Shown: one piece after another, positions 1 to 55,213 of the stretch | Numbering within the stretch: the stretch's first letter is position 1 | Layout of the letters: the number at the start of each line of letters is the position of its first letter | Assembly: GCA_027488855.1 (NCBI GenBank) | Contig: JAIYAV010000387.1 | Span: 1 to 62,909, forward strand | DNA: 62,909 nt | DNA from: Saprospiraceae bacterium | GTDB lineage: Bacteria; Bacteroidota; Bacteroidia; Chitinophagales; Saprospiraceae | Direction: 5' to 3' | Position numbers and translations under genes: made by a program | Notes under the pieces: generated by a model | Seen by the model: only the letters and a program-made list of their open reading frames with translations | The model's database searches: none | What the model was told of the DNA's origin: nothing

Positions 1-132
1 CAAAAGCGACATTTCTTTATCACAAAGGGAAAAAAGAGGACACAAAGGACACAAAGCGAAGCGTCGTCTACGTCTGACTCTGTGACCTTTGTGCTTCTTT
101 GTGCTTTCTTTGTGAAAATTATGTCGCTTTGG
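1..132. repeat. Inverted-repeat element, period-9 family, copy 1
   Basis: The outer ends caaaagcgacat (1-12) and atgtcgctttgg (121-132) are nearly perfect inverted copies. The arms contain CACAAAGGA-type units repeated about every 9 bp, and the centre carries an AGACG-TAGACG-like core in the opposite orientation to copies 2-4 (near 11.6, 32.7 and 34.9 kb). No reading frame is supported. It lies upstream of the OmpA-family gene and may begin before the window. Confidence 0.75.
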
Positions 133-215
133 AATTATTTTGAAAATTCGTGGTGACTCATGTTCCCAACATTAAGTAGGTAATTTTAATTAACTGGACT
201 TAAATTTTACCAATT

Positions 216-1928
216 ATGAAGCATTTATCGCTCTTTATCTGCCTTGTAATTACACAATGGCTAAACGCCCAGACCACCAATTTCTCTTACACGGTTTATT
301 TTAACTCCGATCAACACCAGCTTTCTGCTGAAGCCCAAAAAATTCTACTCCAGACACTCCACGACTTGAAAGGTGCGGAAACCTACCAACTCAAAATCCA
401 TGCTTTTACAGATGATGAAGGCAGCAATGCATACAACCAGGCATTGGGGCAACGACGAGCGGAAGCGGTTTTAGCTTACCTCGATAGTTTAGGTTTGGAA
501 ACTCAAAATGCAAAACTGAACAACTATGGCGAACAAAAAGCCCTTGTGGACAACGCTGTAGCGGAAAACCGCCCCAAAAACCGCCGGGTTGATGTATATA
601 TTCAGGCTGTTTTTAACGAAAATTTTCAAAGCTTATTAAGCAAGCTAAACCGCACCCAGACCTATTCTTATACCGTTTCCAGCACCAAATCCACCTGTTT
701 ACTCACACATCAAGGTACTCTTTTGATGATTCCCGCCCGTGCTTTTGTCAACTCCAACGGCAGCCCCGTTGATGAAGGAAAGGTAACTTTGAAAATTGAA
801 GAATACTATGGATTAAGTGACATGTTGATGGCGGGGTTGAGTACTTCTTCCAATCATAAATTGCTGGCTACCGGAGGGATGATTAACCTTACAGCAATGG
901 CAGAAGAGCAAGAACTTCAATTGGCCCCACAAAAGGAAATAGGGGTTGGAATGCCCATGCGGAAAGGTCAATTTGACCCAGCTATGGAGTTGTTCCTGGG
1001 AAATAAAGACCCTCATCATTCCGATCTCGTCAACTGGAATCCGACCCAACGCAAGGCAACTTCACTAATGAAAGCCTCGGCCAAAGATCGGCCAACGGAT
1101 GCCCTGGGCCAATTTGCCCTATTTAGAGAAACCGCCATCAATCAACTGGTAAAACAGCCAGTTCGGCCTAAGCTGAATACCCGTTCCAAAAGAACCATAC
1201 CACAAAAGCCACAACGTGAGGACATCGAAGTTCATTTAAATTTCTTTCAGAAAATCTTTATCAACAAGCAGAGGGTCGAAGCGCAAAAAGATCGGATTTA
1301 TGCCAAAGAAGTAAAAAACTACCAACGTAGCCTAAAATACTTCCGACGTGATAGCACCTCTTGGAAGAAGTATTTTCAGGATAGTTTGAATTATGTCAGA
1401 CTTTACCAGGAAGCCATCAATGGCGACCTTCAGAACTATCAAGCTGCACTGAATGAATCAAACTTTGCCGCAGCCAATCGGGCACAAGACCAAAAAAAGA
1501 TGCAAGAATTGTACGAAAAAGGGGTAAGCAGCGATGGCCAATTGTCGCAACAAACGCTGGATCGCTATTTCTTTGCCGTCAATCGCCTAGGCTGGATCAA
1601 TTGTGACAAATTCATGAATACGCCAGAAAACCAGTTGACCCAAATTGCCATTCAAGATAGTGATGCAAGTGAAGAACGTTTGATGTTGGTGTTTCCACAT
1701 CTGCCCAGCATTTTATCCGTCAAAAGTAAAACGGTACAGGGAGACTACCTCTCCGACAATATCCCGAAGGGAATGCCCGCCAAATTGATTGGCATCAAAG
1801 TAGACCAGGGTCGCTCAATGTTGGCAGTGAAGGACATCAAAGTAGGGGAGAGCAAACAAAGTTACAACCTGGTTTATCAACCCAAGAGTTTGAGAGAAAT
1901 CCAAAAAGTATTGGAAAGCATTGACTAG
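216..1928 (+). CDS. OmpA-family outer-membrane/periplasmic protein
   Basis: This is a 570-residue secreted protein. Residues 1-19 form a signal peptide ending LNAQ. Residues about 25-130 look like an OmpA peptidoglycan-binding domain, with the typical pattern of a YTVYFNSDQ start, a central GQRRAEAVLAYL helix and a final NRPKNRRVDVYI segment. OmpA domains bind the peptide of peptidoglycan and anchor envelope proteins. The domain is N-terminal here, whereas it is usually C-terminal. The remaining 440 residues include a beta-rich stretch (about 160-260, TLLMIPARAF...GKVTLKIEEYY) and a long charged helical stretch (about 330-450), neither of which I can assign. It is followed by a strong hairpin at 2021-2063. 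The OmpA domain is well supported; the rest is of unknown function. Confidence 0.85.
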   Translation: MKHLSLFICLVITQWLNAQTTNFSYTVYFNSDQHQLSAEAQKILLQTLHDLKGAETYQLKIHAFTDDEGSNAYNQALGQRRAEAVLAYLDSLGLETQNAKLNNYGEQKALVDNAVAENRPKNRRVDVYIQAVFNENFQSLLSKLNRTQTYSYTVSSTKSTCLLTHQGTLLMIPARAFVNSNGSPVDEGKVTLKIEEYYGLSDMLMAGLSTSSNHKLLATGGMINLTAMAEEQELQLAPQKEIGVGMPMRKGQFDPAMELFLGNKDPHHSDLVNWNPTQRKATSLMKASAKDRPTDALGQFALFRETAINQLVKQPVRPKLNTRSKRTIPQKPQREDIEVHLNFFQKIFINKQRVEAQKDRIYAKEVKNYQRSLKYFRRDSTSWKKYFQDSLNYVRLYQEAINGDLQNYQAALNESNFAAANRAQDQKKMQELYEKGVSSDGQLSQQTLDRYFFAVNRLGWINCDKFMNTPENQLTQIAIQDSDASEERLMLVFPHLPSILSVKSKTVQGDYLSDNIPKGMPAKLIGIKVDQGRSMLAVKDIKVGESKQSYNLVYQPKSLREIQKVLESID

Positions 1929-2020
1929 ACAGAGAAATAGAGAAGAAGACTTTTTTCAAAAAAAATCGCATCAAGCACCTGAAATTTCTTTCAAAAAACC
2001 TAATATTGACAAGTAATGTA

Positions 2021-2063
2021 AGCACTTGGCCGGGAGCTAAAAAGCAACTCCCGACCAAGTGCT
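2021..2063. terminator. 15-bp hairpin between OmpA gene and SDR start
   Basis: GCACTTGGCCGGGAG (2022-2036) pairs with CTCCCGACCAAGTGC (2048-2062) with one mismatch and an 11-nt loop; the flanking A/T extends the stem. It lies 93 bp after the OmpA-family stop and only 15 bp before the SDR GTG codon. It can be a terminator (no long T run, only TAAAATCA follows) or a structure in the SDR leader. Confidence 0.6.
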
Positions 2064-2078
2064 AAAATCAGATCGCGC

Positions 2079-2897
2079 GTGAAAGATTTTACTAAAAAAG
2101 TAGCCGTCATCACCGGAGCAGGTTCGGGGATGGGCCGGGAATTGGCCATTCAGCTTGCTGCCGCTGGAGCAAGTGTTGTACTCAACGATTGGCATGAAGA
2201 AACCCTGCAAGAAACCGTTCAGCTCGTTGAAGCCCAAGGTGGGACAGTAGCTGGGCGTGCCTTTAGTGTAGCCGATCGTACGGAGATGTACCATTTCGCC
2301 CAGGAAACGGTGAACCGCTTTGGCGGCGTTGACATCGTCATCAACAACGCGGGGATTTCGCTCTTGCAGCAAAAAATCGAAAGTACCTCCTACGAGCTTT
2401 TTGAAAAAGTGATCAACATCAACATGTGGGGGGTGATTTATGGCTCCAAAGCCTTTATCCCCTTTTTAAAAGAAAGACCCGAAGCTGCACTGGTCAATGT
2501 TTCCAGCATTTTTGGCATTTCAGCCTACCCTGATCAAGGTGCCTACGTAACCGCCAAGTTTGCAGTGCGTGGATTTACCGAGGTGCTGCGCCAGGAATTG
2601 GCCAAAACGAGTGTAAGGGTAACTTGTGTACACCCAGGGGGGATCAAAACCAACATCATCCGCAACATTGACACCAATCAAACTGCACGCCTCAATAAAT
2701 TTTCGGACATCTTCGACCGCATGGCCAAAACCAGCGCTGCCGATGCCGCCAAACGCATCATCCTAGGCATTCAGCGCAAGGAAAAACGGGTCTTGGTTGG
2801 CAAAGACGCCCGCTACATGGACAGCATTGCCCGCCTGATGCCCAGCAATTACGAGGATACGATCATGAAAGGGTACGACATTGAAAAATTCAAATAA
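2079..2897 (+). CDS. SDR-family NAD(P)-dependent oxidoreductase
   Basis: This 272-residue protein is a classical short-chain dehydrogenase/reductase. The cofactor motif TGAGSGMG is at residues 12-19, NNAG at 89-92, and the catalytic set is N114, S142, Y156 and K160 (YVTAK). SDRs interconvert alcohols and carbonyl groups with NAD(P)H; the substrate cannot be told from sequence. The start is GTG, chosen because it gives the usual short lead (KKVAVITG) before the Rossmann motif. The aldehyde dehydrogenase gene begins 12 bp after its stop, so the two are probably one operon oxidising an alcohol through an aldehyde to an acid. That pathway is inference. Confidence 0.92.
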   Translation: MKDFTKKVAVITGAGSGMGRELAIQLAAAGASVVLNDWHEETLQETVQLVEAQGGTVAGRAFSVADRTEMYHFAQETVNRFGGVDIVINNAGISLLQQKIESTSYELFEKVININMWGVIYGSKAFIPFLKERPEAALVNVSSIFGISAYPDQGAYVTAKFAVRGFTEVLRQELAKTSVRVTCVHPGGIKTNIIRNIDTNQTARLNKFSDIFDRMAKTSAADAAKRIILGIQRKEKRVLVGKDARYMDSIARLMPSNYEDTIMKGYDIEKFK

Positions 2898-2909
2898 TTT
2901 CTGCATCAA

Positions 2910-4337
2910 ATGGACACCATCACCGCCAGCAAAATAGACATCCAAGCCCTTTTTGAAAAGCAACAACAATACGCTCCTGAGCTGGCCAACTCTAGTCCTG
3001 CTGAGCGCATCGACCGCCTGAATCGCCTCATCCGTTTTATGGACGACGAACAGGAAATGCAAGGGCTAAAGGATGCCCTTTATCAGGACTTCCGCAAGGC
3101 CGAAGTAGAGGTGATGTTGTCCGAAATCTCCGTCGTAAAAAGCCATGCCCTGCATGCCCGACGCGAGTTGCGCCGTTGGATGCGCCCGCATAAAGTGCCG
3201 ACTCCGCTTACTTTGTTGGGCACTACTTCTTACATCGAATACGAAGCCAAAGGAGTGAGCCTGATCATTTCTCCCTGGAATTACCCCTTCAATCTTACTT
3301 TTTCCCCGCTGGTTTATGCGATCGCCGCCGGGAATACGGCCATCATCAAACCCTCGGAATTGACTCCGCATACGGCTGCGTTTATGGCGCAGGCCATCAA
3401 AAAATTATTCCCTGAGGAAGAAGTTGCCTTATTGGAAGGGGATGCAAGTTTGGCTGCTGCTTTGTTGGAATTGCCTTTTGACCATATCTTTTTTACCGGA
3501 AGTCCGCAGATTGGCAAAGTCGTGATGGCTGCCGCTGCCAAAAATCTGGCCTCAGTGACCCTGGAACTAGGGGGGAAATCTCCGGCCATTCTGGACGAAT
3601 CCGCTGCCATTGATACATTGAGCTACAACCTGGCCTGGGGCAAATGCCTCAACAATGGCCAAACCTGCATCGCGCCTGATTATGCCTTGGTGCACAGTGC
3701 CAAAATGGACGCATTCGTCACTGCTTTTGAAAAATCCCTGAAGCGCCTCTATACAGATCCCACCACCCTGATCAACAATCCTGATTATTGCCGCATCGTC
3801 AACCAGCGGCATTACCAGCGTTTGCGGCGCTTGTACGATGATGCCATCGACAAAGGAGCGGTGGAGTTGCTGGGAGGTACCTGGAACGAAGCCGAATTGT
3901 TTGTGCCACCGACCCTCCTGGGCAATATCAGCGACGACATGTCGATTATGGAGGAGGAAATATTCGGGCCAATCCTGCCCGTTTTACCCTTTTCGAGCCC
4001 CGAGGAGGCTGTCAAAATCATCCGCAAACGGCCAAAACCACTCTCCTTGTACATAGGAGCACGCAATCGACGCTTTATCAACTACATCATGGCCAACACT
4101 TCGGCGGGTGGTACAGTGATCAATGACTACATGTTGGGTTTCGGGAACCCGAATCTACCTTTTGGTGGGGTGAACAACAGTGGGATTGGAAAATACATGG
4201 GCTTTCACGGCTTTGTCGCTTTTTCGAATGAGAAGGCGGTGGTGAAACGGAATTTTGGGACACTAAGTGTGTTGTTCCCGCCTTATACACCAAAGGTCAG
4301 GGCTTTGATGGCATTCGTGCAGAAGAGGTTACTATAG
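2910..4337 (+). CDS. Aldehyde dehydrogenase (ALDH3-like)
   Basis: This 475-residue NAD(P)-dependent aldehyde dehydrogenase has all the family signatures: PWNYPF with the oxyanion Asn at N124, KPSE at 147-150, FTGS at 195-198, general base E219 in LELGG, nucleophile C253 in NNGQTC, and the EEEIFGP segment near residue 350. The absence of an N-terminal extension and the short length resemble the ALDH3 fatty-aldehyde class, which oxidises medium to long aldehydes. It sits 12 bp behind the SDR gene and is probably co-transcribed with it. The gene ends directly at the left arm of a heptad inverted repeat (from about 4337). Confidence 0.93.
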   Translation: MDTITASKIDIQALFEKQQQYAPELANSSPAERIDRLNRLIRFMDDEQEMQGLKDALYQDFRKAEVEVMLSEISVVKSHALHARRELRRWMRPHKVPTPLTLLGTTSYIEYEAKGVSLIISPWNYPFNLTFSPLVYAIAAGNTAIIKPSELTPHTAAFMAQAIKKLFPEEEVALLEGDASLAAALLELPFDHIFFTGSPQIGKVVMAAAAKNLASVTLELGGKSPAILDESAAIDTLSYNLAWGKCLNNGQTCIAPDYALVHSAKMDAFVTAFEKSLKRLYTDPTTLINNPDYCRIVNQRHYQRLRRLYDDAIDKGAVELLGGTWNEAELFVPPTLLGNISDDMSIMEEEIFGPILPVLPFSSPEEAVKIIRKRPKPLSLYIGARNRRFINYIMANTSAGGTVINDYMLGFGNPNLPFGGVNNSGIGKYMGFHGFVAFSNEKAVVKRNFGTLSVLFPPYTPKVRALMAFVQKRLL

Positions 4338-4533
4338 AAAGTGAAAAGTGAAAAATGAAAAATGAAAAGCGAAAAGTGCACCTCCTTCTCCAATCCAAAC
4401 TTTTATGCAAATAAATCGCATAAAACAGTTGAAAAACTATTGGTGTACTTACTTTTCATTTTTCATTTTTCATTTTTCATTTTTCATTTTTCATTTTTCA
4501 TTTTTCATTTTTCATTTTTCATTTTTCATTTTA
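4337..4533. repeat. Heptad inverted repeat (GTGAAAA / CATTTTT array)
   Basis: After the aldehyde dehydrogenase stop comes a left arm of about five degenerate GTGAAAA/ATGAAAA units (4337-4377). At 4457-4533 there are eleven successive CATTTTT units in exact 7-bp phase, the inverted equivalent. The inner ends gtgcacc (near 4376) and ggtgtac (4442) also pair. The array runs into the stop codon (4531-4533) of the convergent T9SS gene. Phe/His/Ser-rich reading frames here are only translations of the repeat. Confidence 0.85.
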
Positions 4534-6564
4534 TTCCACCAGCAACTTCTCCGTCCAACTCAATTCCGGCAGTTTTACCCTGACCAGATACACTCCTTTT
4601 TGAAGGTGATCTACCGACAGTTTGTTTTGGTTGATGCCTGGTACCATTTGCACCGATAAACTTTTGCTGACTTCGCGGCCACTCAGGTCAAATACCTGAA
4701 TCAGGGCTTGACCAGTTTGGGTTGATTCGAATTCCAGGAAAGTTTCGCCCCGACTTGGGTTGGGATACAAGCGGGGTTGCAACAGCTGCTTAGGTTGCTC
4801 AATCGTAGCAATTTCGGCGCTGGTAAAGCCAAAAACTTTTACCAATTGACAGGTAGTAGCCGTTCCACAAGGACTGGTCACCGTCAAACAAATGCGCTGC
4901 GGGCCATTGGGTAAATTGACGGTATCTACTGCGGCACTGGTCACCAGGCCACTGCCAAAGTCCCAGGTATAAGTGGCACTATCTTGGGCTTGTGCGGTCA
5001 CAATTACCCGGCTACCATTTTTGCTGACCGTAAAGTTCGCATTGGGTTTGGAGCAAGCTCCACCTTGGGTGAGCAATACCGTTTGGGTTTCGCTGCCACA
5101 AGTGAAAGTGAGAATTTCCTGGCGGCTGCCGGGGTCGTCCTTACGAATGACACTTACTTTGGTGCTGCCATTGCCAGTTCCTGTTCGAGGCGACAGTTCT
5201 ACCCAACTTACCGTTGGTTCGCTACTCCAGGCTTTGGAAGCTTTGATGGTCAGGGTTTTAGGGGCTCCATTGCCAGTAAAGTCCAGTACATTGGGCACTA
5301 CACTCAGGTTGCAGGGTACGGGGTCACAGTTGAAACTGATGTGGTAATTGCCCTGGGTCATCGCCATGCGGGCATCCACCACTACGTAATAAGTACCAGC
5401 AGGTAAGTCTTGGAGGATGGTGCGGCGATTGCTGCCAGTGCCAGATTCCGGGCTTCTGCCCAAACAGAATGGCGCTTCAACGGTATTGATGGTTTGGTTT
5501 ACATCTGAGCAAATCTCACCTTTGACCAGCGTCAAATTCATGTCCTGACCAGGAGTGAGGATGTTCATTTCTACAAACAACTTGCTGGCTTTGTCTAATT
5601 TGATCTTGTACACCCGGTCGTTGCCTTCTGAATCAAATACCCCAGAACCACAAGTGTAACGCCATACGTCGTTGCGGCCACCAATGGTGCTTTGGTTTTG
5701 TAGTTTTTCACCACATTTGACAGTAAGGGCTTTGCCGCAAAGGTCCTGGAAGCCACATTCTACGTTCAGGGTAAAGCGACCCCGGTCGTAATTGGTTTCG
5801 CCGTCGATGACCACCAGGTAGGTTCCCGCCTCCAGTTTGGCAACGATTTTTCTCTCTTTGTGGTTGTCTTGTGGAATCCAGGCCTGGGTGATGCAATCCT
5901 TTTTGTCCACCTTGTAATAAGGCTTTTTAGGATCACAAACATCTCTGATCAAGAACATGTCCAGATCGATCCAGTTGTCCAGGATTTTCATGTCCAGGCG
6001 AACTTCCGAGTATTCGCTGACCTCCAGGCGATAGACCTTTTCGCCACTGTACAAATCCGATTCGTAGCCGGAGCAATTGTACAAAGTGAGGCGGTTGGGC
6101 TCCAGATTGTTGTTGGCGCTGATGTTGCTGCCACAGGAAATCGTGGGAATGTTGATGTCACAAATGGTGCCCTGTGCTGATGCAGCTTGAACTTGGAAGC
6201 ATTGGCTATCCGTGGTGTTGACATTCAGTCCGCCATAAAACTTCAGGCAATAATTTCCTGGGTAGTTCAGCCCTTGAAAAGTACGGGTGAAGGTAAAGGG
6301 CGTGGTCACCTGTGCACAAGGTCCGGCACTTTGGATCACATTGAAATAGAGATTGAGGTTGTTCCCCGCCGAAACTGTGGCCCCTTGATAGCTCAGGCTG
6401 TAACAGGCATTGGGAAAATCTCCTTTTAGTTTAACAGTGAAAGCTTGACCTGCAACGGGTTGTGCTGGGTCAATTTCAATGTCACGAATCGTTTGGGCGC
6501 TCAGCCAACTGAGGCTAAACAGGAAGCACACGAAGGTGAACAGGGTAGATAGTTTGTTCCGCAT
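4531..6564 (-). CDS. T9SS type A cargo with PPC-like, BACON and PKD domains
   Basis: This is a 677-residue secreted protein. The start is the Met at 6564, which opens a signal peptide (MRNKLSTLF...SWLSAQ); the longer frame to 6681 crosses a canonical promoter at 6609-6640. In order it has an N-terminal beta domain, two pre-peptidase-C-like beta domains (each with KLEAGTYLVVIDG or LPAGTYYVVVDA), a BACON-like domain (VPNVLDFTGNG...TFTCGSETQTVLL), a PKD-like domain (NFTVSKNG...TYTWDFGSG) and a type A T9SS sorting domain (LYPNPSRGE...KGVYLVRV...EKLLVE). There is no catalytic domain, so a surface adhesion or carbohydrate-binding role is plausible. It is probably monocistronic. Its stop codon abuts the CATTTTT array. 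Confidence 0.88.
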   Translation of the reverse strand: MRNKLSTLFTFVCFLFSLSWLSAQTIRDIEIDPAQPVAGQAFTVKLKGDFPNACYSLSYQGATVSAGNNLNLYFNVIQSAGPCAQVTTPFTFTRTFQGLNYPGNYCLKFYGGLNVNTTDSQCFQVQAASAQGTICDINIPTISCGSNISANNNLEPNRLTLYNCSGYESDLYSGEKVYRLEVSEYSEVRLDMKILDNWIDLDMFLIRDVCDPKKPYYKVDKKDCITQAWIPQDNHKERKIVAKLEAGTYLVVIDGETNYDRGRFTLNVECGFQDLCGKALTVKCGEKLQNQSTIGGRNDVWRYTCGSGVFDSEGNDRVYKIKLDKASKLFVEMNILTPGQDMNLTLVKGEICSDVNQTINTVEAPFCLGRSPESGTGSNRRTILQDLPAGTYYVVVDARMAMTQGNYHISFNCDPVPCNLSVVPNVLDFTGNGAPKTLTIKASKAWSSEPTVSWVELSPRTGTGNGSTKVSVIRKDDPGSRQEILTFTCGSETQTVLLTQGGACSKPNANFTVSKNGSRVIVTAQAQDSATYTWDFGSGLVTSAAVDTVNLPNGPQRICLTVTSPCGTATTCQLVKVFGFTSAEIATIEQPKQLLQPRLYPNPSRGETFLEFESTQTGQALIQVFDLSGREVSKSLSVQMVPGINQNKLSVDHLQKGVYLVRVKLPELSWTEKLLVE

Positions 6565-6608
6565 TTTATAAAATTTGGTGATTAGTATGGCTGCGGAGGG
6601 ATGCGGCA

Positions 6609-6640
6609 CAAATATAGAATATTCTGCGATGCATACCAAT
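6609..6640 (-). promoter_or_regulatory. Bacteroidota promoter (TTG-20-TATATTTG) for the 6564 gene
   Basis: On the minus strand a -33 TTG (complement of 6637-6639) is followed by exactly 20 nt and the -7 box TATATTTG (complement of 6609-6616). Transcription would begin near 6603, 39 nt before the chosen ATG. This fits the known Bacteroidota sigma-factor consensus and fixes the gene start. Confidence 0.75.
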
Positions 6641-6759
6641 GCCGCGAAAGTCTTTTGTTTGACAAAATAAGACGGGCACAACGAGGAAAGGGTTTGGAGT
6701 TAGTCTTGGTTTTTCAGGAAGAATAATTTCCGACTTCGTCGGGTTTTCATATGTGCATC

Positions 6760-6902
6760 ATTCCTGAGATGTCCCTGAGATATCCCTGAGATGTCTTAGA
6801 TGGTTCAATTAAAATTGTCTAATTGGTAAAAAAGAGAATTTTTCGTGCGGCTACGCCGCTTGTTTTTTCACCATTTAAGACATCTAAGAGACACCTCAGG
6901 GG
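6760..6902. repeat. Imperfect inverted repeat with CCTGAGATGT units
   Basis: Three direct copies of a CCTGAGATgT-type decamer (about 6763-6793) end in cttagatgg. An inverted partner (ttaagacatct...acacctcagg) lies at about 6877-6900, with a small cggctacgccg hairpin inside. The rest of the 360-bp gap between the T9SS gene and dapF holds only the promoter at 6609-6640; no gene is visible. Confidence 0.55.
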
Positions 6903-6923
6903 TATTCATTTTCGGCTGCTAGG

Positions 6924-7709
6924 CTATATTTCCCCTTCAAAAACCAGCTTTGCCGGGCCACACAACCACACATCCGTAAAACCCTGCTCAGTCGCCGTGA
7001 AACGGATCGCCATTTCACCACCTTTCACTTTAATCGGCACTTCACTTGATCCCAGCGCTCCACCTTTTTTCAAGTGGTAGGCCAGCGCAGCAGCGGTTAC
7101 TCCCGTACCACAAGCCAGGGTTTCATCCTCCACGCCGCGCTCGTAGGTCGCAATGCTGAGGCCCTGCTCAGTGATTTGGGTGAAATTCACATTGGTGCCT
7201 TCTGCCCGAAAACGATCGTTGTACCGAATCGCCCGACCCGCTTGCACCACATCAACATCGCCCACTTCTTCCACAAAAGCAATATAGTGGGGTGACCCAG
7301 TATTGAGGTAGTAAAAATCGCTGCCCTCTTCTACATGTGTCACATCGATCATTTTTAGTTCCACCCATTCCGGATTATTGATCACGGCATCGTGGGGGCC
7401 ATCTACCGCCAGAAAGTGGCAAGTATTCCCAATGGCACCCAATTGATGGGCAAAAGCCACCGTACAACGCCCACCATTGCCACACATGCTGCCTTCTCGG
7501 CCATCGGCATTGAAATAAACCATTTCAAAATCGTAGTCAGGGTGGTTTTGTAGCAAAATCAATCCATCGGCACCGATGCCAAAACGACGATGACAAAGTT
7601 GTTCTACCAAAGCCTGGTCTTCGCGTGCGATCCACTGCTGATCGCGCTGGTCGATCATGATAAAATCATTTCCAGCCCCCTGGTATTTGTGAAATGGTAT
7701 GCCTTGCAT
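6924..7709 (-). CDS. dapF: Diaminopimelate epimerase
   Basis: DapF interconverts LL- and meso-diaminopimelate, the last epimerisation before meso-DAP enters lysine synthesis and peptidoglycan. This 261-residue protein has the N-terminal signature KYQGAGNDF and the two catalytic cysteines in their family motifs, C76 in MCGNGGRC and C200 in ACGTG (numbered from the Met at 7709). The ERGVEDET segment just before the second Cys is also typical. An upstream Met at 7718 would add three residues; I prefer 7709 because family members start two to four residues before the first beta strand. It is divergent from the Do protease gene and appears monocistronic. Confidence 0.95.
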   Translation of the reverse strand: MQGIPFHKYQGAGNDFIMIDQRDQQWIAREDQALVEQLCHRRFGIGADGLILLQNHPDYDFEMVYFNADGREGSMCGNGGRCTVAFAHQLGAIGNTCHFLAVDGPHDAVINNPEWVELKMIDVTHVEEGSDFYYLNTGSPHYIAFVEEVGDVDVVQAGRAIRYNDRFRAEGTNVNFTQITEQGLSIATYERGVEDETLACGTGVTAAALAYHLKKGGALGSSEVPIKVKGGEMAIRFTATEQGFTDVWLCGPAKLVFEGEI

Positions 7710-7852
7710 ATTGCACATTTATTTTTCTCGTTCTTTTATAAGGTGCTAAATTTTGTAAAAGTTGCAAAAGTTGCTAAAATGTTAGATTTTGCAAAGTGTA
7801 GCCACTTAGTAATGGGGTAAAAATAAGTTATCGCCCCTTATAAAATCACCAC

Positions 7853-9316
7853 ATGTTGAAAAAATATCTTCCGACTGTACTGGCTTCCTTGTGTAGCGCC
7901 TTGTTGGCAGTCGCCATTTATCGTTTGCTGGAAAAACCTCGGGAAGTCATTATACGTGAACCCAATGCCACATCGTACTTGTCGCGTAATGTAGCACAGG
8001 ATGGGATTACCACGGGTAATGCGCCAAGAACCCTCTCGGCAGCACCTACTGAATTCACCAAAGCAGCAGGTATTGCCACGCCTGGGGTGGTGAATATTCA
8101 AAGTGTGAATACAGGTGGTGGGGATGGTTTATCCTTTGACGATTTGTTCGGTCGCGAGCGGCATCCTCAACGGGGTGCTTCTGGTTCGGGGGTGATCATT
8201 TCCAAAGACGGTTACATCGTGACCAATCACCACGTGGTGGCAGATGGAGATAAAATCAGCGTTTCATTCAGCAACAACCGTGAACTGAGCGCTACCCTGA
8301 TCGGCAGCGACCCTTCCACGGATTTGGCACTGATTAAAGTAGAAGCGGACAATCTGCCATTTTTGACCTTTGGCAATTCCGATTCGGTACAGGTAGGGGA
8401 GTGGGTACTTGCCGTAGGCAATCCCTTTGATTTGGAGTCCACGGTGACCGCCGGCATTGTTAGCGCCAAAGGCCGCAGCATTGATGTACTGGATGCCCAG
8501 GATAAAATCGAATCTTTTATTCAGACCGACGCTGCCGTCAATCCTGGCAACAGCGGCGGCGCGCTGGTTAACACCGAAGGTGAACTCATTGGCATCAATA
8601 CCGCCATTTTAACCCAATCCGGGCAATATGAAGGTTATTCTTTTGCCGTACCCGCAAACCTGGCACGCAAGGTCATCGGCGATTTAAAAAACTACGGCAT
8701 CGTGCAACGCGGGCTCATTGGCATCCGAATTGAAGATGTCAACAGCGAACTAGCCAAGGACCTGGGGCTCAACAACGTTGAAGGCGTACACATCACCGGG
8801 GTAACGCCGGGTAGTGGTGCCGCCGATGCAGGATTGCGCAGAGACGATGTCATTTTGCGGGTAAATGGAGTAAAAACGGCCACCATGCCCGAATTGCAGG
8901 AACAAGTAGGCCGGTATTCTCCGGGCAATGTACTCAAAGTGGAATACGTTCGCAATGGCAAAAAATCAGTGGCGAAAGTAACCCTCAAAAACCGCAGCAA
9001 CCGCACCAGTATCGTGAAGGGCGATGATGTAAATTATTTGCAAAAACTCGGGATGGAAGTCCGCCCGTTGAGTGCGCGTGAGCGCAAAATCCTGAAATTG
9101 GATAAAGGAATAAAAGTGACCAGTGTGTTGCGCGGCAGCACCATTGATCGGACCAACCTCAAGCCCGATTTCATCATCACCGAAGTCAATGGACTTCGCG
9201 TTTCAACTGAAACTGATTTGGTGAACGCACTACAAAAGGCGGGCAAGGAAGTGAAATTGAAAGGGGTGTACGAAAACGTAGATGAGCCCTATTTTTATGT
9301 TTTTCACGCAAAATAA
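7853..9316 (+). CDS. Do-family serine endopeptidase (DegP/DegQ/HtrA)
   Basis: This is a 487-residue periplasmic quality-control protease. An N-terminal hydrophobic segment (about residues 5-24) is a signal peptide or anchor. The trypsin-like domain carries the complete triad H127 (TNHHVV), D157 (STDLALIKV) and S234 (NPGNSGGA). Two PDZ domains follow, roughly 275-370 (with GSGAADAGLRRDDVIL) and 390-485 (with RSTIDRTNLKPDFIITEVNG-like features). Family members form cage-like oligomers that degrade or refold misfolded envelope proteins. The next gene begins within 60 bp on the same strand, so read-through is possible. Confidence 0.95.
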   Translation: MLKKYLPTVLASLCSALLAVAIYRLLEKPREVIIREPNATSYLSRNVAQDGITTGNAPRTLSAAPTEFTKAAGIATPGVVNIQSVNTGGGDGLSFDDLFGRERHPQRGASGSGVIISKDGYIVTNHHVVADGDKISVSFSNNRELSATLIGSDPSTDLALIKVEADNLPFLTFGNSDSVQVGEWVLAVGNPFDLESTVTAGIVSAKGRSIDVLDAQDKIESFIQTDAAVNPGNSGGALVNTEGELIGINTAILTQSGQYEGYSFAVPANLARKVIGDLKNYGIVQRGLIGIRIEDVNSELAKDLGLNNVEGVHITGVTPGSGAADAGLRRDDVILRVNGVKTATMPELQEQVGRYSPGNVLKVEYVRNGKKSVAKVTLKNRSNRTSIVKGDDVNYLQKLGMEVRPLSARERKILKLDKGIKVTSVLRGSTIDRTNLKPDFIITEVNGLRVSTETDLVNALQKAGKEVKLKGVYENVDEPYFYVFHAK

Positions 9317-9370
9317 CTCATTATTCCCAAAAGCCTAATGAGCCTCGTGCTCATGCTAACACCATCCAAG

Positions 9371-10576
9371 ATGACCCAAAAACTTTACTTGAGCCTTTGT
9401 TTTGTTTGCCTGCTGTGCAGCACGCAAGCCCAAATTTCCTTGACGCGCAACGATTTTTCGGTTTCGAGCAATCGGGCCGATACCATCCTCACCCAGGGAA
9501 TGCAGCGCAAGGGGTTTCAATTGCCCAAAGGAGGGAACAACCAGTTTTGGGATTATTCTAGCTTGCAGGATTCCGCCGTGGCACCCAGTCGTTTTGTTAC
9601 TTCTGTTGAGAATCCTTTTGGCATCTTCCCCAATTCAACAGGTGTCTATACTGCCACCTATACCTTTGGCCCTTTTCGGGTCAACAACAACTACCAGTTC
9701 GAGCGCTATGCCGATGATGGCTACTCCATCCAGGGTACCATTTTTGCTGGAGGACGTTTTTCATTGCGGAGCTTTACTGGTTTTGCAACGGACTCAGTAG
9801 TGCTGTTCACCAAAGTGGACAATTACAGCAATAACCCGCTTTATTATTACAAATTCCCGCTCACGGCTACAAGCAAACAAACCTGGAGGTACCGCAATGT
9901 GATCAATTTTCAATTGACGGTTGCGCTGGTGGGTTTGACCCGTGCGCCCGGTCAAGTGGTCACCAACGAATTTAAACGCGACTCCACCATGGGCTGGGGT
10001 ACCTTGCGCATGCGCAACCCCAAGGGTGGCAGTGCGTTGGATTTTGCGGTGCTTTTGGTGGAAACGGCTGAGTTATCCAGGGATAGCTTCTACCTCTCAG
10101 GAGGGCCAGCTCCCGGCCTGCTGCTGGGGGCATTGGGCTTACAACAAAACGCAGTTCGTCGAAATACTTCTTATAATTTTTACGGCGCTCGGTTTGCCAC
10201 TGCTATCCTGAGCGCAACGGTGCGCAATGACACCCTGGCTCGGGTCACCCGCAGCATCAACCCCGTGCGTGGCTTGGTAACAGATTTGCCAGATGTGAAA
10301 GAATTGTCGGTACAAACAAAATTGTATCCCAATCCCAGCCCCGGTGAGTTCTACCTGGAATTTGACAAAACCGAAGCAGCCAATTGGGACCTCCTGATTT
10401 ACAACACGCAAGGCCAAATGGTCGGTTTGGAACGCATCAGCGCACCGAGTGGCCAAGTCAAACAGCACATCCAGCTCAAACCCACCCTGAGCAATGGCAC
10501 TTATTTTTACCATTTGCTGGATCAACGTTCTTTGATTCGCAGCAGCGGAAGCTTTTTGTTAGTGAAAAGTGAATAG
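9371..10576 (+). CDS. T9SS type A cargo, otherwise unknown
   Basis: This is a 401-residue secreted protein. The start chosen is the ATG at 9371, which opens a signal peptide (MTQKLYLSL...CSTQAQ); an earlier ATG at 9338 adds a polar lead. The C-terminal 80 residues are a type A T9SS sorting domain (LYPNPSPGEFYLEF...NGTYFYHLL...GSFLLVKSE). The middle is beta-rich with no domain I recognise. The last five sense codons (LVKSE) and the stop lie inside the left arm of a heptad inverted repeat, so the natural end of the sorting domain has probably been rewritten by the repeat. Confidence 0.85.
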   Translation: MTQKLYLSLCFVCLLCSTQAQISLTRNDFSVSSNRADTILTQGMQRKGFQLPKGGNNQFWDYSSLQDSAVAPSRFVTSVENPFGIFPNSTGVYTATYTFGPFRVNNNYQFERYADDGYSIQGTIFAGGRFSLRSFTGFATDSVVLFTKVDNYSNNPLYYYKFPLTATSKQTWRYRNVINFQLTVALVGLTRAPGQVVTNEFKRDSTMGWGTLRMRNPKGGSALDFAVLLVETAELSRDSFYLSGGPAPGLLLGALGLQQNAVRRNTSYNFYGARFATAILSATVRNDTLARVTRSINPVRGLVTDLPDVKELSVQTKLYPNPSPGEFYLEFDKTEAANWDLLIYNTQGQMVGLERISAPSGQVKQHIQLKPTLSNGTYFYHLLDQRSLIRSSGSFLLVKSE

Positions 10577-10695
10577 TGAAAAGTGAAAAATAACCTAAAC
10601 CCATAACCTAATTTTGATGTTTTCACCAAATCGTGCGCAGTGGAACAGTGATGGTGCAATTGCTTTTCACTTTTCACTAATCACTTTTCACTAAC
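10558..10695. repeat. Heptad inverted repeat (GTGAAAA family), copy 2
   Basis: The left arm 10558-10589 and right arm 10664-10695 are 32 bp each and complementary at 31 of 32 positions. Both are built from GTGAAAA-type heptads (TTTTCAC on the right). The spacer is 74 bp. The left arm contains the stop codon of the T9SS gene (10574-10576), and the right arm ends 9 bp before the next ATG (10705). The heptad matches the array at 4337-4533. Confidence 0.85.
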
Positions 10696-10704
10696 AAAAC
10701 CAAA

Positions 10705-11583
10705 ATGAACTACTTCATCCTCTCCTCCCTCTCGGTTATCATGAGTTTGCTGACGGTGTTTCAACCCATGCAGCGCCGGGTAGCCCTGGTCAATCCAATC
10801 GAGGCACCCATGCCGATGTGCCACAGCACTGGCGACGGTATGGCCGCTTTTGTTGATGATCCCAAGTTTGTAGCCTTGCATCCGGCACCACTGCCGCTGG
10901 ATTATGCCGAAATGGGCAGCAGTGTCAGCTTCAAAACGCCTGATGGGAAAACGGCAAACGGCTACATGATTAAGGCCAAGAAAAAATCGAACAAGTGGTT
11001 GTTTGTGTACCAGGAATGGTGGGGCATGAACGACTACATCAAGCGCCAATCGGATATTTTTTACAACGATTTGGGTGGCTCGGTCAACGTGATCGCGCTG
11101 GACATGTACGATGGCAAAGTGACTGCTGACCCCAAAGAGGCTGGGGCGTTCATGCGCGGCGTGCAGGAAGCTCGCCTGGAGAGCATCGTGAAAGGTGCGG
11201 TGATGATGGCGGGCAAAAAAGCCAAAATTGCCAATGTAGGCTGGTGCTTCGGCGGCGGCTGGTCCTTGAAGTCGGCCATCCTGGGCGGCAAACAAACGGT
11301 TGGTTCCGTGATGTACTACGGCATGCCTGTACAGGATGTGGAAAAACTCAAAACCTTGAACACCGATGTGTTGGGTCTTTTCGCCACCGAAGAATACATC
11401 TCCAAAAAAGTCATCGAAGACTTTGCTGCCAATATGAAAACGGCGGGTAAAAGTCTGACATACAAAATTTTCCCTGGCGTGCATGGTTTCTCCAATCCAA
11501 GTAACCCTAAATACGATGAGGCGCTGTCGAAAGAGGCGTATGGGATGGCAATTGGGTACTTGAAGCAGAAATTCGGGGTGTAA
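10705..11583 (+). CDS. Dienelactone-hydrolase-family protein
   Basis: This 292-residue alpha/beta hydrolase has a hydrophobic N-terminus (about residues 4-19) that may export or anchor it. The nucleophile is a cysteine, C181 in GWCFGGGWS, and H260 is in the PGVHGF motif. E104 in YQEWWG matches the glutamate that primes the thiolate in dienelactone hydrolases. The acid of the triad is normally Asp; here the equivalent position reads ATEE (E229/E230), so it appears to be Glu. Dienelactone hydrolases open lactone rings in aromatic degradation, but no such pathway genes are nearby, so the substrate is unknown. Confidence 0.85.
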   Translation: MNYFILSSLSVIMSLLTVFQPMQRRVALVNPIEAPMPMCHSTGDGMAAFVDDPKFVALHPAPLPLDYAEMGSSVSFKTPDGKTANGYMIKAKKKSNKWLFVYQEWWGMNDYIKRQSDIFYNDLGGSVNVIALDMYDGKVTADPKEAGAFMRGVQEARLESIVKGAVMMAGKKAKIANVGWCFGGGWSLKSAILGGKQTVGSVMYYGMPVQDVEKLKTLNTDVLGLFATEEYISKKVIEDFAANMKTAGKSLTYKIFPGVHGFSNPSNPKYDEALSKEAYGMAIGYLKQKFGV

Positions 11584-11596
11584 GGGCTCAGAGCTT

Positions 11597-11731
11597 GTTA
11601 CCACAGTGACATTTTGTAAACACAAAGAAAAAAAAGAGGACACAAAGGACACAGAGTTAGACGTTGACGGTCTTTGTGTCCTTTGTGCCCTCTTTTTTTT
11701 CTTTGTGATAAAAATATGTCGCTGTGGTAAC
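11597..11731. repeat. Inverted-repeat element, period-9 family, copy 2
   Basis: The ends gttaccacagtgacat (11597-11612) and atgtcgctgtggtaac (11716-11731) are inverted copies with one mismatch. The arms hold CACAAAGGA-type units, and the centre has TTAGACGTTGACG. The element lies between convergent genes (DLH stop at 11583, TlpA stop at 11756) and may act as a two-way terminator. Confidence 0.8.
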
Positions 11732-11755
11732 TGTAAAAAAAATGAGATCCTTGTG

Positions 11756-12973
11756 TCAATTCCCCCGAATAATCCCCTCAATTTTCTCCCAATTCCCTGC
11801 CGGATTCCCCGTCCAGCGCACCTTCATCTCTGAGTCAAGCAACACGGCATAAGGCACACTTTTTTTGGGGTTTAAAAAAGCCTTGAGTAAATTTCCTGCA
11901 TAGGCCTGGGGCCAATTCATGTTGTACTTTTTGATAAAACCTTCCACATGTTCGGCTCGATTGTCTCCACTGTTCAGGCTGATGACTTCCAACACCGCAG
12001 CATGTTCTTCCTGAAAAGCCCGCACTTTGGGCATTTCCCTCAGGCAAGGCCCACACCAGGTGCCCCACAAATCCAGGAGCAGAAACTTGCCCAGGTCTTT
12101 TTTGCTGTACAAATTCATCGGAGTTTTGGATTGGATGGGGTAAAATGAAAAATCAGGCGCGATCGGATTTTGTTCCAAAACTTTCCCTTGCAGGTGTTGA
12201 TTGAGTCGTTCATCGGCATACTGTAAACTGTCCAAGGTGCCAAAATCAAGACTGCGCAGGCGTGGCAAAATGGGGGCAATGGGGCCTGGAACAATCCGGC
12301 GCAGGATCCGCTCGGAACCCATGTTGGGTGAGGTATAGAGTGTTCTGAAGATCATACCTTGTGGCGCAAAAAGGGTGTTGAGGTGGTAGGGCAAAACTTG
12401 CTCCTTTGTATAAGGTATCTCTTCCGTGAGCCAATAAAGGTCCGTTCCGCCCAGTTCAGGATTTGAACTAGGAAGCTCATAGGCCATACACTTGTAACCC
12501 AGGATTTTTTCCTTCAACTTGGGCAAACGTTGGAGTTTTGAATAGTCCTTTTTGAACCAGGAACTGACTTTGATTTTATCCCGCCAGTTGGGGTCATCGG
12601 TATAATTTTCAAAAAGATCTTCAATTTCCTTGGTTTTGCCAAGAACCAATCGGCTTCCTTTCGCTAGGTTAATTACTTCTGCCTGAAATCCAGCTTGAAA
12701 ATCGATATTCGATATTGTGGTTTCGTTATTGTAATATTTTTCAGTCCAAACACTGTCGCCTTTGATGTAATAACGCAGGCGGAGTGAATCCGCACGGAAG
12801 GGCTTAATGGCTTCTTCAGACCAGCCAAGGTTTTTAAATCCTTCCAGGGTCTTTTTGTGGTATTCAGGGTCGTTTTTAAAAATGACGGTGTACTCCAAAA
12901 TACCCTCAAATGCCTGGGCACTCAAGCAATGGCTCAGCCCAATCATGATGCATACTATGGCTAAGGTTCTCAT
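11756..12973 (-). CDS. TlpA-type thioredoxin fused to a GLPGLI-like domain
   Basis: This is a 405-residue secreted protein with a signal peptide (residues 1-19, ending LSAQ). Residues about 20-260 resemble GLPGLI/DUF4412-like beta domains of Bacteroidota (FEGILEYTVIF...ILGYKCMAYEL...LYWLTEE). The C-terminal 120 residues are a thioredoxin fold with the redox motif WCGPC (C307, C310) and the cis-Pro near residue 374. TlpA proteins reduce or exchange disulfides in the periplasm, often in cytochrome c maturation. It is the second gene of a pair, 5 bp after the paralogue at 12979-14205, and the two are surely co-transcribed. The partner substrate is unknown. Confidence 0.85.
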   Translation of the reverse strand: MRTLAIVCIMIGLSHCLSAQAFEGILEYTVIFKNDPEYHKKTLEGFKNLGWSEEAIKPFRADSLRLRYYIKGDSVWTEKYYNNETTISNIDFQAGFQAEVINLAKGSRLVLGKTKEIEDLFENYTDDPNWRDKIKVSSWFKKDYSKLQRLPKLKEKILGYKCMAYELPSSNPELGGTDLYWLTEEIPYTKEQVLPYHLNTLFAPQGMIFRTLYTSPNMGSERILRRIVPGPIAPILPRLRSLDFGTLDSLQYADERLNQHLQGKVLEQNPIAPDFSFYPIQSKTPMNLYSKKDLGKFLLLDLWGTWCGPCLREMPKVRAFQEEHAAVLEVISLNSGDNRAEHVEGFIKKYNMNWPQAYAGNLLKAFLNPKKSVPYAVLLDSEMKVRWTGNPAGNWEKIEGIIRGN

Positions 12974-12978
12974 ATTGT

Positions 12979-14205: not shown

Positions 14206-14334
14206 GGCATTGAAGGTTAAGTGTTTGTTTTGATGTATATTGTTTTGGTGGTTAATTCAAAAATACCAAAAACAAAATACATTCGCAAGACTTAAACACT
14301 TCCCTCCAAATTTTTTAACATTTGTTTTGTGGCC

Positions 14335-16767: not shown

Positions 16768-16804
16768 GTGTTTTGGTTTTGTAGGGCCTTCAAATGATGG
16801 TTTC

Positions 16805-16812
16805 CAAAGCTA
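16805..16812 (-). promoter_or_regulatory. -7 box TAGCTTTG upstream of GH95
   Basis: The minus strand reads TAGCTTTG, 38 nt before the GH95 ATG. It matches TAnnTTTG, but no TTG is found 20 nt upstream. The rest of the 228-bp divergent gap up to 16995 shows no other feature. Confidence 0.4.
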
Positions 16813-16994
16813 AGGAATTTTGGCTTTGGAGATACTTCCTTTGGAGATCTTTGTGAAGTTTGGACTTGGCGAGGATGTCTTTTGTATTTTAGGGGCTCAA
16901 TGAAATGGGGGGAATACTCAATGGATGAGGGTAAGGTATAAAGTGAAAAAAAATTGGATGGGAATAGCCGGAGTTTTATGGAAAAGAAAAGGAC

Positions 16995-18962: not shown

Positions 18963-18971
18963 CCCAATACC

Positions 18972-19706: not shown

Positions 19707-19741
19707 AAAATATTTTGCGCCAAAAACTGTTTTGTATTTTT

Positions 19742-32673: not shown

Positions 32674-32790
32674 CCAAAGCGACATTTTTTAGCAAAAAGG
32701 ACGCAAAGGCAGCACAAAGGGCACAAAGGGCACAAAGTTAGACGTTGACGACGCTTTCTTCGTGCCCTTCGTGCTTTTGTTTTGAAGTTT
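32674..32790. repeat. Inverted-repeat element, period-9 family, copy 3
   Basis: The left end ccaaagcgacat (32674-32685) matches copy 1. CACAAAGGG units repeat at 9 bp, with central TTAGACGTTGACGACGC and a right arm rich in cgtgcccttcgtgc. The right terminal box is degraded (ttttgaagttt instead of atgtcgctttgg). It separates the HlyD-type gene from the TIGR04282-type gene. Confidence 0.75.
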
Positions 32791-34861: not shown

Positions 34862-34966
34862 CCCAAAGCGTCATTTTTTTATCGCCCCAAAGGCAGCACA
34901 AAGGACACAAAGATAGACGTTGACGTCGCTTTGTGTCCTTTGGTGCTTTTTCTAAAAGTTTGGGGG
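34862..34966. repeat. Inverted-repeat element, period-9 family, copy 4
   Basis: The left end cccaaagcgtcat (34862-34874), CACAAAGGA units, and the core GATAGACGTTGACGTCGC are followed by a right arm tttgtgtcctttgg. The right end aaaagtttggggg overlaps the last four codons and stop of the minus-strand OsmC gene (34952). It lies between convergent genes. Confidence 0.8.
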
Positions 34967-53640: not shown

Positions 53641-55089
53641 ATGGTGAACACCGTTTACGAAACCGTTGTCGGTTTAGAAGTACACGTCCAATTGGCGACG
53701 AACAGCAAGGCATTTTGTGCAGATGATGCCAGCTTTGGCGGTGAGCCCAATACCCAGGTCAGTGCTGTTTCGTTGGGGCATCCGGGTACTTTGCCCAAGG
53801 CCAATCGTCGGCAGATCGAATTGGCTGCTCGTCTTGGCTTAGCCTTAGGCTGTAGGATCAATGCGACCAATACCTTTGACCGCAAGAACTACTTCTACGC
53901 AGATTTGCCCAAGGGTTATCAAATTACCCAGGATAAACAGCCAATTTGTATCGGTGGGGCTTTGTCGATCAAACTGGGCAGTACCTGGAAATCGATCCGC
54001 ATCCACCACATCCACATGGAAGAAGACGCTGGTAAATCGATCCATACCCTCGCCCCACGGCATTCTTTCATCGATTTGAACCGCGCGGGTGTGCCTCTGC
54101 TGGAAATTGTAACCGAGCCCGACCTGCGTTCAGGCGAGGAGGTAGACGCCTTTATGACGGCCATGCGCCAGTTGGTGCGTTACTTGGAAGTATCCGATGG
54201 CAACATGGAGCAGGGTTCTTTGCGTTGTGACGTGAACATCTCCGTTCGGGAGCAGGGCAGCACAATTTTGAACGACCGCTGTGAAGTCAAAAACGTCAAC
54301 TCAATGAAATTTGCGCGTCAGGCCATTGATTATGAGGTGCGGCGGCAAATTGGATTGATGGAAAGCGGCCAGAAAGTCAAACAACAAACCCTCAATTTTG
54401 ATCCCAATACCGGGGTGACGTCGCCACTGCGTGAAAAAGAAGACGCACACGATTATCGCTATTTCCCTGAGCCGGATTTGCCCCCCATCGTGCTTTCAGA
54501 GGCTTATCTGAGTAAGGTTAAAAACGAATTGCCCCAACTTCCGGCGGCCTTGTATGAGACTTTGACGACCCAATACCAACTTTCCGATTACGATGCGAGC
54601 ATCCTGGTGGAGGAAAAGGCAATTGCTTTGTTTTACCTCAATTTGGTGCAGTACAGCCCAAATTACAAAGCTGCTGCGAATCTGGTGATCAACCGCATTT
54701 TGCCCTGGTGCCAGGAGCAAAAAACGTCCCTCACCCAATTTCCTCTGGCCGGGCCACAACTCGCTGCGTTAATTCAGTTGATTGAAGAGGGGAAAGTGAG
54801 CAATACGGCGGCTTATCAAAATCTTTTCCCTGCGATGTTGGCCAAACCAGGGCAGGAGCCCCTGGCATTGGCGGAATCGCTCAATTTGATTCAAACCTCC
54901 GATGGTGATTTTTTGCAAAAAATAGCTGCCGAAATCCTAGCTCAGTTTCCGGACAAAGTGAAGGAGTACCAAAAGGGCAAAAAAGGTTTGATTGGCTTCT
55001 TTATGGGTGAACTGATGAAACGGTCAAAGGGGAAAGCTGATCCGAAGGTGGCGACTGGGATTCTGGAAAATTTGCTAAAAGGAGGTTGA
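53641..55089 (+). CDS. gatB: Asp/Glu-tRNA amidotransferase subunit B
   Basis: GatB is the kinase-like subunit of GatCAB, which turns Glu-tRNA(Gln) or Asp-tRNA(Asn) into the cognate amidated tRNA in bacteria without the direct synthetase. This 482-residue protein has VGLEVHVQL near the N-terminus, the strongly conserved YFYADLPKGYQITQ, GAL-S segment and IHHIHMEEDAGK, plus the C-terminal YqeY-like tail with KGLIGFFMGELMK that contacts the tRNA elbow. Length fits the family. gatA and gatC are not adjacent, as in many Bacteroidota. It converges on the ABC ATPase gene across an octamer inverted repeat. Confidence 0.97.
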   Translation: MVNTVYETVVGLEVHVQLATNSKAFCADDASFGGEPNTQVSAVSLGHPGTLPKANRRQIELAARLGLALGCRINATNTFDRKNYFYADLPKGYQITQDKQPICIGGALSIKLGSTWKSIRIHHIHMEEDAGKSIHTLAPRHSFIDLNRAGVPLLEIVTEPDLRSGEEVDAFMTAMRQLVRYLEVSDGNMEQGSLRCDVNISVREQGSTILNDRCEVKNVNSMKFARQAIDYEVRRQIGLMESGQKVKQQTLNFDPNTGVTSPLREKEDAHDYRYFPEPDLPPIVLSEAYLSKVKNELPQLPAALYETLTTQYQLSDYDASILVEEKAIALFYLNLVQYSPNYKAAANLVINRILPWCQEQKTSLTQFPLAGPQLAALIQLIEEGKVSNTAAYQNLFPAMLAKPGQEPLALAESLNLIQTSDGDFLQKIAAEILAQFPDKVKEYQKGKKGLIGFFMGELMKRSKGKADPKVATGILENLLKGG

Positions 55090-55213
55090 GAAAGGTTGAG
55101 GCGTTGAGAAGTTTAGGCTCCGCAGCTTTTTTGATGTAGACCTTGTCTAAGTCGCTGCGGTAGCCTAAACTTCTCAACTTCTCAACTTCTCAACTTCTCA
55201 ACACCTCAACTTT
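55084..55213. repeat. Octamer inverted repeat (AACTTCTC family)
   Basis: GTTGAGAAGTTTAGGCT-ccgcagc (55103-55126) pairs with gctgcgg-tAGCCTAAACTTCTCAAC (55154-55178) with one inserted base. The right side continues with further AACTTCTC units at 8-bp phase to about 55190, then aacacctcaacttt pairs with aaaggttgaggcgtt at the left edge. It lies between the convergent gatB and ABC ATPase stops and can act as a two-way terminator. Confidence 0.85.

Follow-up and report, generated by a model that had tools for sequence, protein, structure and literature searches.

Palindromes with tandem-repeat arms behind genes of a Saprospiraceae genome and its relatives: inverted centres, nesting and family replacement

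The genome from which the window analysed here was taken (the window being the whole stretch of 62,909 nt) carries a numerous class of extragenic palindromes whose arms are arrays of one short unit, and comparison with related species suggests that such a hairpin at a gene end can outlive its own sequence. The same comparison supports two further steps. Arms appear to swap sequence, so that the centre inverts and some substitutions and unit changes reach both arms, and palindromes seem to settle within one another, at the loop or axis, which would lead to nests, arm remnants and the replacement of one family by another. The element class is real, is broader than first described and is explained in part by known processes. 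The full explanation, which joins extragenic palindromes at gene 3' ends, arm exchange, loop nesting and family replacement, has in our judgement an even chance of being correct. Family swapping at orthologous sites and nesting, both beyond the reach of an annotation made from the window alone, are, we think, the more surprising parts.

The host genome (G000; 8.37 Mb in 422 contigs) was compared with four genomes of the same genus (G001 to G004). We take the host to be a member of the Haliscomenobacter group, a filamentous sludge bacterium. Protein identity to related records was 92% for a Saprospiraceae MAG and 90% for a Chitinophagales MAG. G002, presumably Haliscomenobacter hydrossis DSM 1100, has a chromosome of 8,371,686 bp and an assembly in 4 contigs.

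The first-pass annotation had listed seven elements in the window as inverted repeats with arms of period 7, 8 or 9. All seven were found where it had placed them, and a further palindrome of period 11 was absent from its list. The RNA fold z-scores of all window elements were computed against dinucleotide shuffles. The features, none with an assigned strand, are:

3..132, palindrome of period 9 (CACAAAGGA) with AAAGCGACAT ends, at the contig end; fold z -7.4
4338..4378, left arm of the 4337-4533 element, period 7 (AAAGTGA/AAAATGA), about 5.9 copies by TRF
4453..4532, right arm of the 4337-4533 element, period 7 (TTTTCAT), 11.4 perfect copies by TRF
6763..6901, palindrome of period 11 (CCTGAGATGTC); fold z -6.2
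10554..10699, palindrome of period 7 (AGTGAAA) with the stop codon of ORF 9338-10576 inside; fold z -8.8
11597..11731, palindrome of period 9, the most regular copy, with ends GTTACCACAGTGACAT / ATGTCGCTGTGGTAAC; fold z -14.0
32674..32790, palindrome of period 9; fold z -3.1, the weakest, with 1 of 200 shuffles folding equally well
34862..34966, palindrome of period 9; fold z -5.2
55084..55213, palindrome of period 8 (GTTGAGAA) with a long inner stem; fold z -11.7

The elements had been described as sharing a single design, and this holds: many unrelated unit sequences have a common architecture and position. The expanded arm reported for the 4337-4533 element (fold z -10.0) is borne out by the TRF counts of TTTTCAT and AAAGTGA; its left arm begins directly past the stop of ORF 2910-4337 and its right arm extends into the stop of ORF 4531-6681 on the minus strand. 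The remark that elements touch stop codons is likewise confirmed by the element at 10558, which contains the last codons and the stop of ORF 9338-10576, and the wider sample agrees. Here, the palindrome encodes the final residues and the stop of the upstream ORF (10556-10576). The orthologs in G001 and G004 carry the unit AGCGAAA in both arms around a recognisably related middle and, as judged by eye, likewise encode the gene end with this other unit; in the corresponding gap of G002 no element was detected, and the gene ends differently there. A position mostly between convergent genes was a fair description, since the elements at 4337, 11597, 34862 and 55084 lie in convergent gaps, the one at 32674 in a co-directional gap and the one at 1-132 at the contig end. 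The 10558 gap is co-directional if ORF 10705-11583 on the plus strand, which aligns to G002 end to end, is the gene; the longest-ORF rule picked an overlapping minus-strand ORF and so mislabelled the gap at 10577 as convergent.

Other repeats were seen along the way. A 37-nt unit that includes CCATGGCTTTAGCCGTGG is repeated about three times in tandem between two co-directional ORFs at 31023-31137, and a 21-nt repeat (GAAAAACAACGGGCAGAGCAA) occurs six times at 47496-47621, within ORF 46584-47753. A palindrome of about 215 bp and of GTGCGACTTCTCCGAAGTCG type at 19742-19957 has more than 20 similar copies in G004 and was not at the same gap in G001 or G004; similar palindromes adjoin Y1 transposase genes (L173, L181), and it may be a true REP/BIME of a RAYT. 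Two other palindromic insertions, for each of which G001 and G004 have a clean empty site, lie at 38813-38986 of the window and at 12205-12365 of L078; the latter looks like an ordinary MITE.

The abundance of the elements was assessed in a G000 sample of 458,876 bp, consisting of the window and 20 other stretches that were selected in part for their hits. A palindrome score threshold of 44 was used here and in the location, Y1-locus and G002 counts. Among the 90 strong palindromes, 44 had an array of period 6-12 in at least one arm and 27 had one in both arms, compared to 46 and 3 of 900 after the arms had been shuffled. Tandem arms are therefore present beyond chance. Periods 7, 8 and 9 predominate, and the highly diverse units fall into at least 10 families. 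The automatic family labels are coarse, as the GTGAAAA pattern also fires within period-9 elements, and the list of compound elements that they yield is not the count of nests given below. In fourteen 20-kb stretches of G002 (280 kb), spread along the chromosome and picked without regard to hits, 35 of 71 palindromes had tandem arms, which by extrapolation gives about 1,000 tandem-arm elements per G002 chromosome. Genome-wide, the copies are thus anything but few. Tandem arms were also found in 10 of 15 palindromes in G004 and 2 of 5 in G003 (100 kb each), in 2 of 7 in 120 kb of G072 (one of its six stretches being chosen for a hit), and in none of 1 in 50 kb of E. coli.

Matches to the period-9 element are numerous in G000, G001, G002 and G004 and absent from G003; outside the genus, one weak match each was found in 2 of 35 genomes. 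Copies similar to the element at 3..132 are 76-96% identical to it elsewhere in its own genome and 87-96% in G001. A generic tandem-palindrome pattern (GTTGANNN) matched 4 of 395 genomes of the phylum (66 times in G000, 58 in G072 and once in each of two others), and its reversed control matched none of the 395. The architecture thus occurs sporadically, and in some genomes in large numbers. G072, an order mate from another family with a single contig of 5.08 Mb, uses units such as GTTGATTG in its 58 matches; they extend the architecture beyond the family, whether by independent origin or by transfer. In a plasmid collection, one CACAGATT element matched two plasmids of Haliscomenobacter hydrossis and one of Bacteroides finegoldii, and no match was obtained with the single GTTGAG, period-9 and CGCGGAT elements searched.

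The elements are placed behind genes. With gene calls from a simple longest-ORF rule that is wrong in places, the G000 sample had 16 tandem-arm elements in 50 convergent gaps, 23 in 176 co-directional gaps and none in 56 divergent gaps, with 5 unassigned, and under the same rule G002 had 8 in 34, 20 in 108 and 1 in 35, respectively, with 6 in ORFs or at edges. In G000, 31 of the 39 gap-located elements lie at most 30 bp from a stop. A stable hairpin behind the gene is a trait shared with intrinsic terminators. The T fraction after the stems is 0.34 compared to 0.30 in the background (55 element sides), and as this T-tract signal is weak, we do not claim intrinsic termination. An Rfam scan of the window revealed no family at the gathering threshold.

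The orthologous gaps were compared by mapping positions 1-20000 and 31000-50999 of the window together with L060, L063, L075, L077 and L078 to the relatives (L037, a duplicate of L042, was left out of the gap tables). At a palindrome score of 40 (window 36), non-divergent gaps with a tandem palindrome in both genomes, in G000 only, in G004 only or in neither numbered 14/4/5/23 (p=0.00014); a stricter run at 44 (window 36) and with L077 omitted gave 12/5/5/20 (p=0.0016). Tandem co-occupancy was not significant in G001 (5/8/2/15, p=0.19) or G002 (6/3/5/12, p=0.10), and counting any palindrome gave p=0.0003 for G004, 0.011 for G001 and 0.051 for G002; G000, G001 and G004 are fragmented assemblies in all of these comparisons.

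Co-occupied gaps often hold different families. By a score rule applied to tandem and other palindromes alike, the family was shared in 10 of 19 comparisons with G004, 3 of 10 with G001 and 1 of 8 with G002, so that 23 of 37 differ, although inspection by eye suggests a relationship in two of the differing G004 rows and in one from G001, and one G002 row is borderline under the rule. Between G000 and G004, another family is present in 7-9 of the 19 co-occupied gaps; in the 14 gaps that are tandem on both sides, 7 differ by the rule, one of these being related by eye. At L078:10845, for example, GTTGAG occurs in G000 and G001, GTTCC in G004 and GTTCG in G002. The gap at 6763-6901 has a CTTAGGTG-type palindrome in G001 and G004, with no palindrome detected in G002; in the gap of the 32674 element, the palindrome of G001 and G004 is of the GTTGAG family and that of G002 of the CGAGTGA family; and the gap of the 34862 element has a GTTCC palindrome in G004. 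The period-9 element at L060:16524 corresponds to a plain hairpin at the same place in G001 and G004, while at 24061 of the window a plain hairpin in G000 corresponds to a GTTGAG element in G001.

Palindromes were also found within palindromes, with only three cases of nesting at a loop or axis. Two involve a family with AAACATGAGTCATCCCGAATTTT-like ends (17 hits of 109 to 272 bp; one hit, at 39853 of the window, lies within an ORF, has poor ends and is probably due to chance). At L063:3127-3397, such an element lies at the centre of a palindrome of period 9, the G004 ortholog of which has the same period and no nested element, and at L061:15852-16123 it lies at the axis of a GTTGAG palindrome. 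In the third case, at L204:15974-16273 of G002, the outer palindrome has CGCGGAT arms and AAAGCGACA-type ends and encloses a CACAAATT palindrome, a free copy of which, with 92% identity, lies about 4.7 kb away. Relative to two free CGCGGAT elements, the outer palindrome lacks no more than about 11-15 nt, at the loop. We rejected a reading of this case as a triple nest, because the free CGCGGAT element L199:14980 bears similar AAGCGACA ends. That element (14980-15105 of L199, G002) joins AAGCGACA ends to CGCGGAT arms; in G000 such ends accompany CACAAAG arms. Remnants of outer arms beside new elements were recognised by eye, as GGTTGAG to the left of a period-9 element at L075:18408 and, in G001, as TCAGCA at L060:5475 and GTTCC stumps at L078:1967. 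The nests and stumps together indicate a path for the swaps, namely insertion into the loop followed by loss of the outer arms.

On the sequence evidence, the proposed arm exchange is best shown by the centre flips. The centre was inverted between species at four clear sites and one ambiguous site out of 13. These 13 sites have the same family, by our own reading, in at least two genomes; at some of them (e.g., 6773 of the window and L063:5490) one or more partners were not flagged as tandem by the automatic rule. The non-tandem REP L060:8467, L063:8162 (where only the ends are shared) and L077:6500 were excluded. The clear flips have score gains of 28-54.5, and their cores match as follows:

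L075:8735, direct 20/31, flipped 28/31
L075:16304, 18-nt core, direct 14, flipped 18
L075:18408, 17-nt core, direct 11, flipped 17
L078:4752, direct 33/47, flipped 44/47

Best-of-many flip scoring is unreliable for unrelated pairs, which gain up to +25, and we accepted only gains of at least 28 together with a check of core identity. L078:10845 (gain +36) was demoted to ambiguous, as its cores match at 25/55 either way, a pattern that could reflect loss of opposite core halves. Smaller gains of +13.5 to +15.5 occur in the related pairs 6773 of the window (G000 with G001/G004), L075:16304 (G000 with G002) and L063:8162 (G000 with G004). In six unflipped control pairs, the direct match was better in five and tied in one. 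Chloroplast hairpins reportedly undergo "minute inversions" (attributed to Kelchner and Wendel). A sequence-specific invertase is unlikely, because the four clear flips span three unit families; inversion of the centre between species calls for exchange between the arms.

Paired changes may point in the same direction. We followed 707 Watson-Crick pairs over 18 comparisons, which share sites, are thus not all independent and include one non-tandem REP; 134 further pairs were lost to gaps. Of the 707 pairs followed, 655 were unchanged, 43 were changed on one side and nine on both, seven of the latter being compensated, compared to 1.3 double changes and 0.4 compensated ones expected under independence. 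When partners were slid by 3-5 columns, two-sided changes amounted to 32/5,055 or 0.63%, compared to the 1.27% observed, and so their excess is only about twofold. Compensation, rather than the excess of double changes, is the stronger part of this signal. The suggestion made from the window alone, that the arms could lengthen by slippage and correct one another, finds partial support in the unit change in both arms at 10558, in the compensation in seven of nine two-sided changes and in the inverted centres; the 43 one-sided changes, however, mean that correction is incomplete.

We propose that arm exchange might occur by template switching of the DNA polymerase, together with slippage, at hairpins extruded during replication. 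Nesting could arise if some families prefer hairpin loops, the then redundant outer arms being lost afterwards. The sites would persist if a hairpin is tolerated or of use at the end of a gene (for termination or protection of the 3' end) but not in a promoter.

Ordinary MITEs are a possible though less than probable alternative. Each unit family would then be one MITE, moved in trans by a transposase with a preference for palindromes or gene 3' ends as targets, and the tandem structure and matching of the arms would be incidental to the terminal inverted repeats (TIRs). Conserved ends and many copies are indeed features of the period-9 and CATGAGTC elements; positions 1-157 of the window share up to 95-96% identity with their copies in G001, while aligned genes are about 85-90% identical; there is an empty site at L060:16524; and REP palindromes are known targets of IS elements (PMC1525189). 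The MITE-like ends of the period-9 family indicate that part of the element set is, as far as its sequence tells, a known kind of mobile repeat. The ends of the GTTCC, GTTCG and GTGAAAA elements, however, are the repeats themselves. By eye, no direct target duplication flanks the CATGAGTC-type elements, although A/T-rich flanks could hide one, and no autonomous copy, sought as a pair of CATGAGTC-type TIRs 300-3500 bp apart, was present in the sampled fraction of each genome. No mobilising enzyme for the elements was found in the DNA sampled. Moreover, MITEs by themselves leave unexplained the tandem arms in at least 10 families, the flipped centres and the change of unit in both arms at an orthologous site.

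A bolder version of the template-switching proposal, which we consider improbable, dispenses with a transposase: replication forks stalled at one hairpin would take the loop of a second as their template and go back once it was copied, and one process would account for all features. If this were true, hairpins behind genes would be self-propagating by-products of replication, and slippage plus switching from arm to arm and from hairpin to hairpin would make the tandem arms, their matching, the flips, the nests and the swaps.

It is more doubtful still that the elements are terminator hairpins under selection alone, with families and flips resulting from recombination of intergenic alleles between strains. 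Their position behind genes agrees with this, as does the occurrence of a plain hairpin instead of a tandem element at L060:16524 (G001, G004) and at 24061 of the window. Selection for pairing alone, however, neither inverts a loop nor puts one family into the loop of another, and the T-tracts are weak.

Assembly artefacts, i.e. contigs ending in repeats and loops inserted backwards, are a very unlikely source of these patterns. Several contigs do end in CATTTTT arrays, and G001 and G004 are fragmented, but every flipped pair has at least one partner with exact arms of at most 21 nt (range 16-37), within reach of ordinary reads, and the abundance and one nest are also found in G002 with its 4 contigs. 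The least credible reading, REP/REPIN elements moved by RAYT (Y1) transposases, has in its favour 40 Y1_Tnp matches (13 in G000, 3 in G001, 7 in G002, 9 in G003, 6 in G004 and 2 in G072) and is not supported, as tandem-arm palindromes do not flank the Y1 genes examined (0 of 27 palindromes at 30 of the 40 loci, compared to 44/90 in the genome sample) and G003 has 9 Y1 matches yet no period-9 match.

If arm exchange, nesting and replacement act as we propose, these genomes address an open question, namely how perfect stems arise and remain matched. With about 1,000 elements by extrapolation, many of them orthologous, in species that are about 75-90% identical in aligned DNA, rates of template switching could become measurable in a bacterium. 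The data also suggest that a gene can retain the hairpin at its 3' end even as one hairpin sequence gives way to another; annotation of terminators or repeats by sequence would miss such cases.

Our literature search, mostly of open-access texts, revealed no account of these Haliscomenobacter elements or of tandem-arm palindromes that flip, nest and swap genome-wide. Among dispersed short repeats, the STRR heptamers of cyanobacteria are intergenic 7-nt arrays. The G-rich heptamers of Xanthomonas and Nostoc also form dispersed intergenic arrays, some in inverted pairs (PMC4692102); unlike the elements studied here, they are not described as swapping families, flipping or nesting in the accessible part of that paper. 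Like REP, BIME and REPIN sequences, the elements are extragenic palindromes in many copies, and mobile elements that insert into palindromes are known (PMC1525189). They differ from them in having arms made of tandem arrays and in showing no link to the Y1 loci examined. BrickBuilt of Porphyromonas gingivalis is a minisatellite in a MITE, with a 23-nt unit in a single array and 19 copies in one strain (PMC4596501). It is similar in being an intergenic element of the Bacteroidota with small inverted ends and internal tandem repeats, whereas in our elements each arm is an array and the whole element a hairpin.

The marks of template switching between inverted repeats are homogenization of the arms and inversion of the spacer (PMC8604942), and stems made or mended in this way are described for yeast coding genes and RNA genes (PMC8604942, PMC8794818). 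Spacer inversion between relatives was found here as well (four clear sites and one ambiguous site of 13), in this case in dispersed, nested, extragenic palindromes of bacteria, unlike the cases in those texts.

The closest precedent is the P6b stem of the trnL(UAA) group I intron of Nostoc, which consists of Class I (TDNGATT) or Class II (NNTGAGT) heptamer repeats, varies in length by whole units, and in which Class I replaced Class II repeatedly at one site (PMC4476775). The first-pass annotation knew of no described family with this structure; this holds only in part, since the Nostoc stem is a single-locus precedent and a MITE with tandem repeats was already known (PMC4476775, PMC4596501). 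As in P6b, both sides of the stem are tandem repeats (in 27 of 90 palindromes here), and unrelated motifs replace each other at one site. Unlike P6b, with one intron locus and two motifs, the elements described here occupy many intergenic sites, belong to at least 10 families with periods of about 7-11, and flip and nest. They thus offer a genome-wide parallel to the puzzling replacements in the Nostoc P6b stem.
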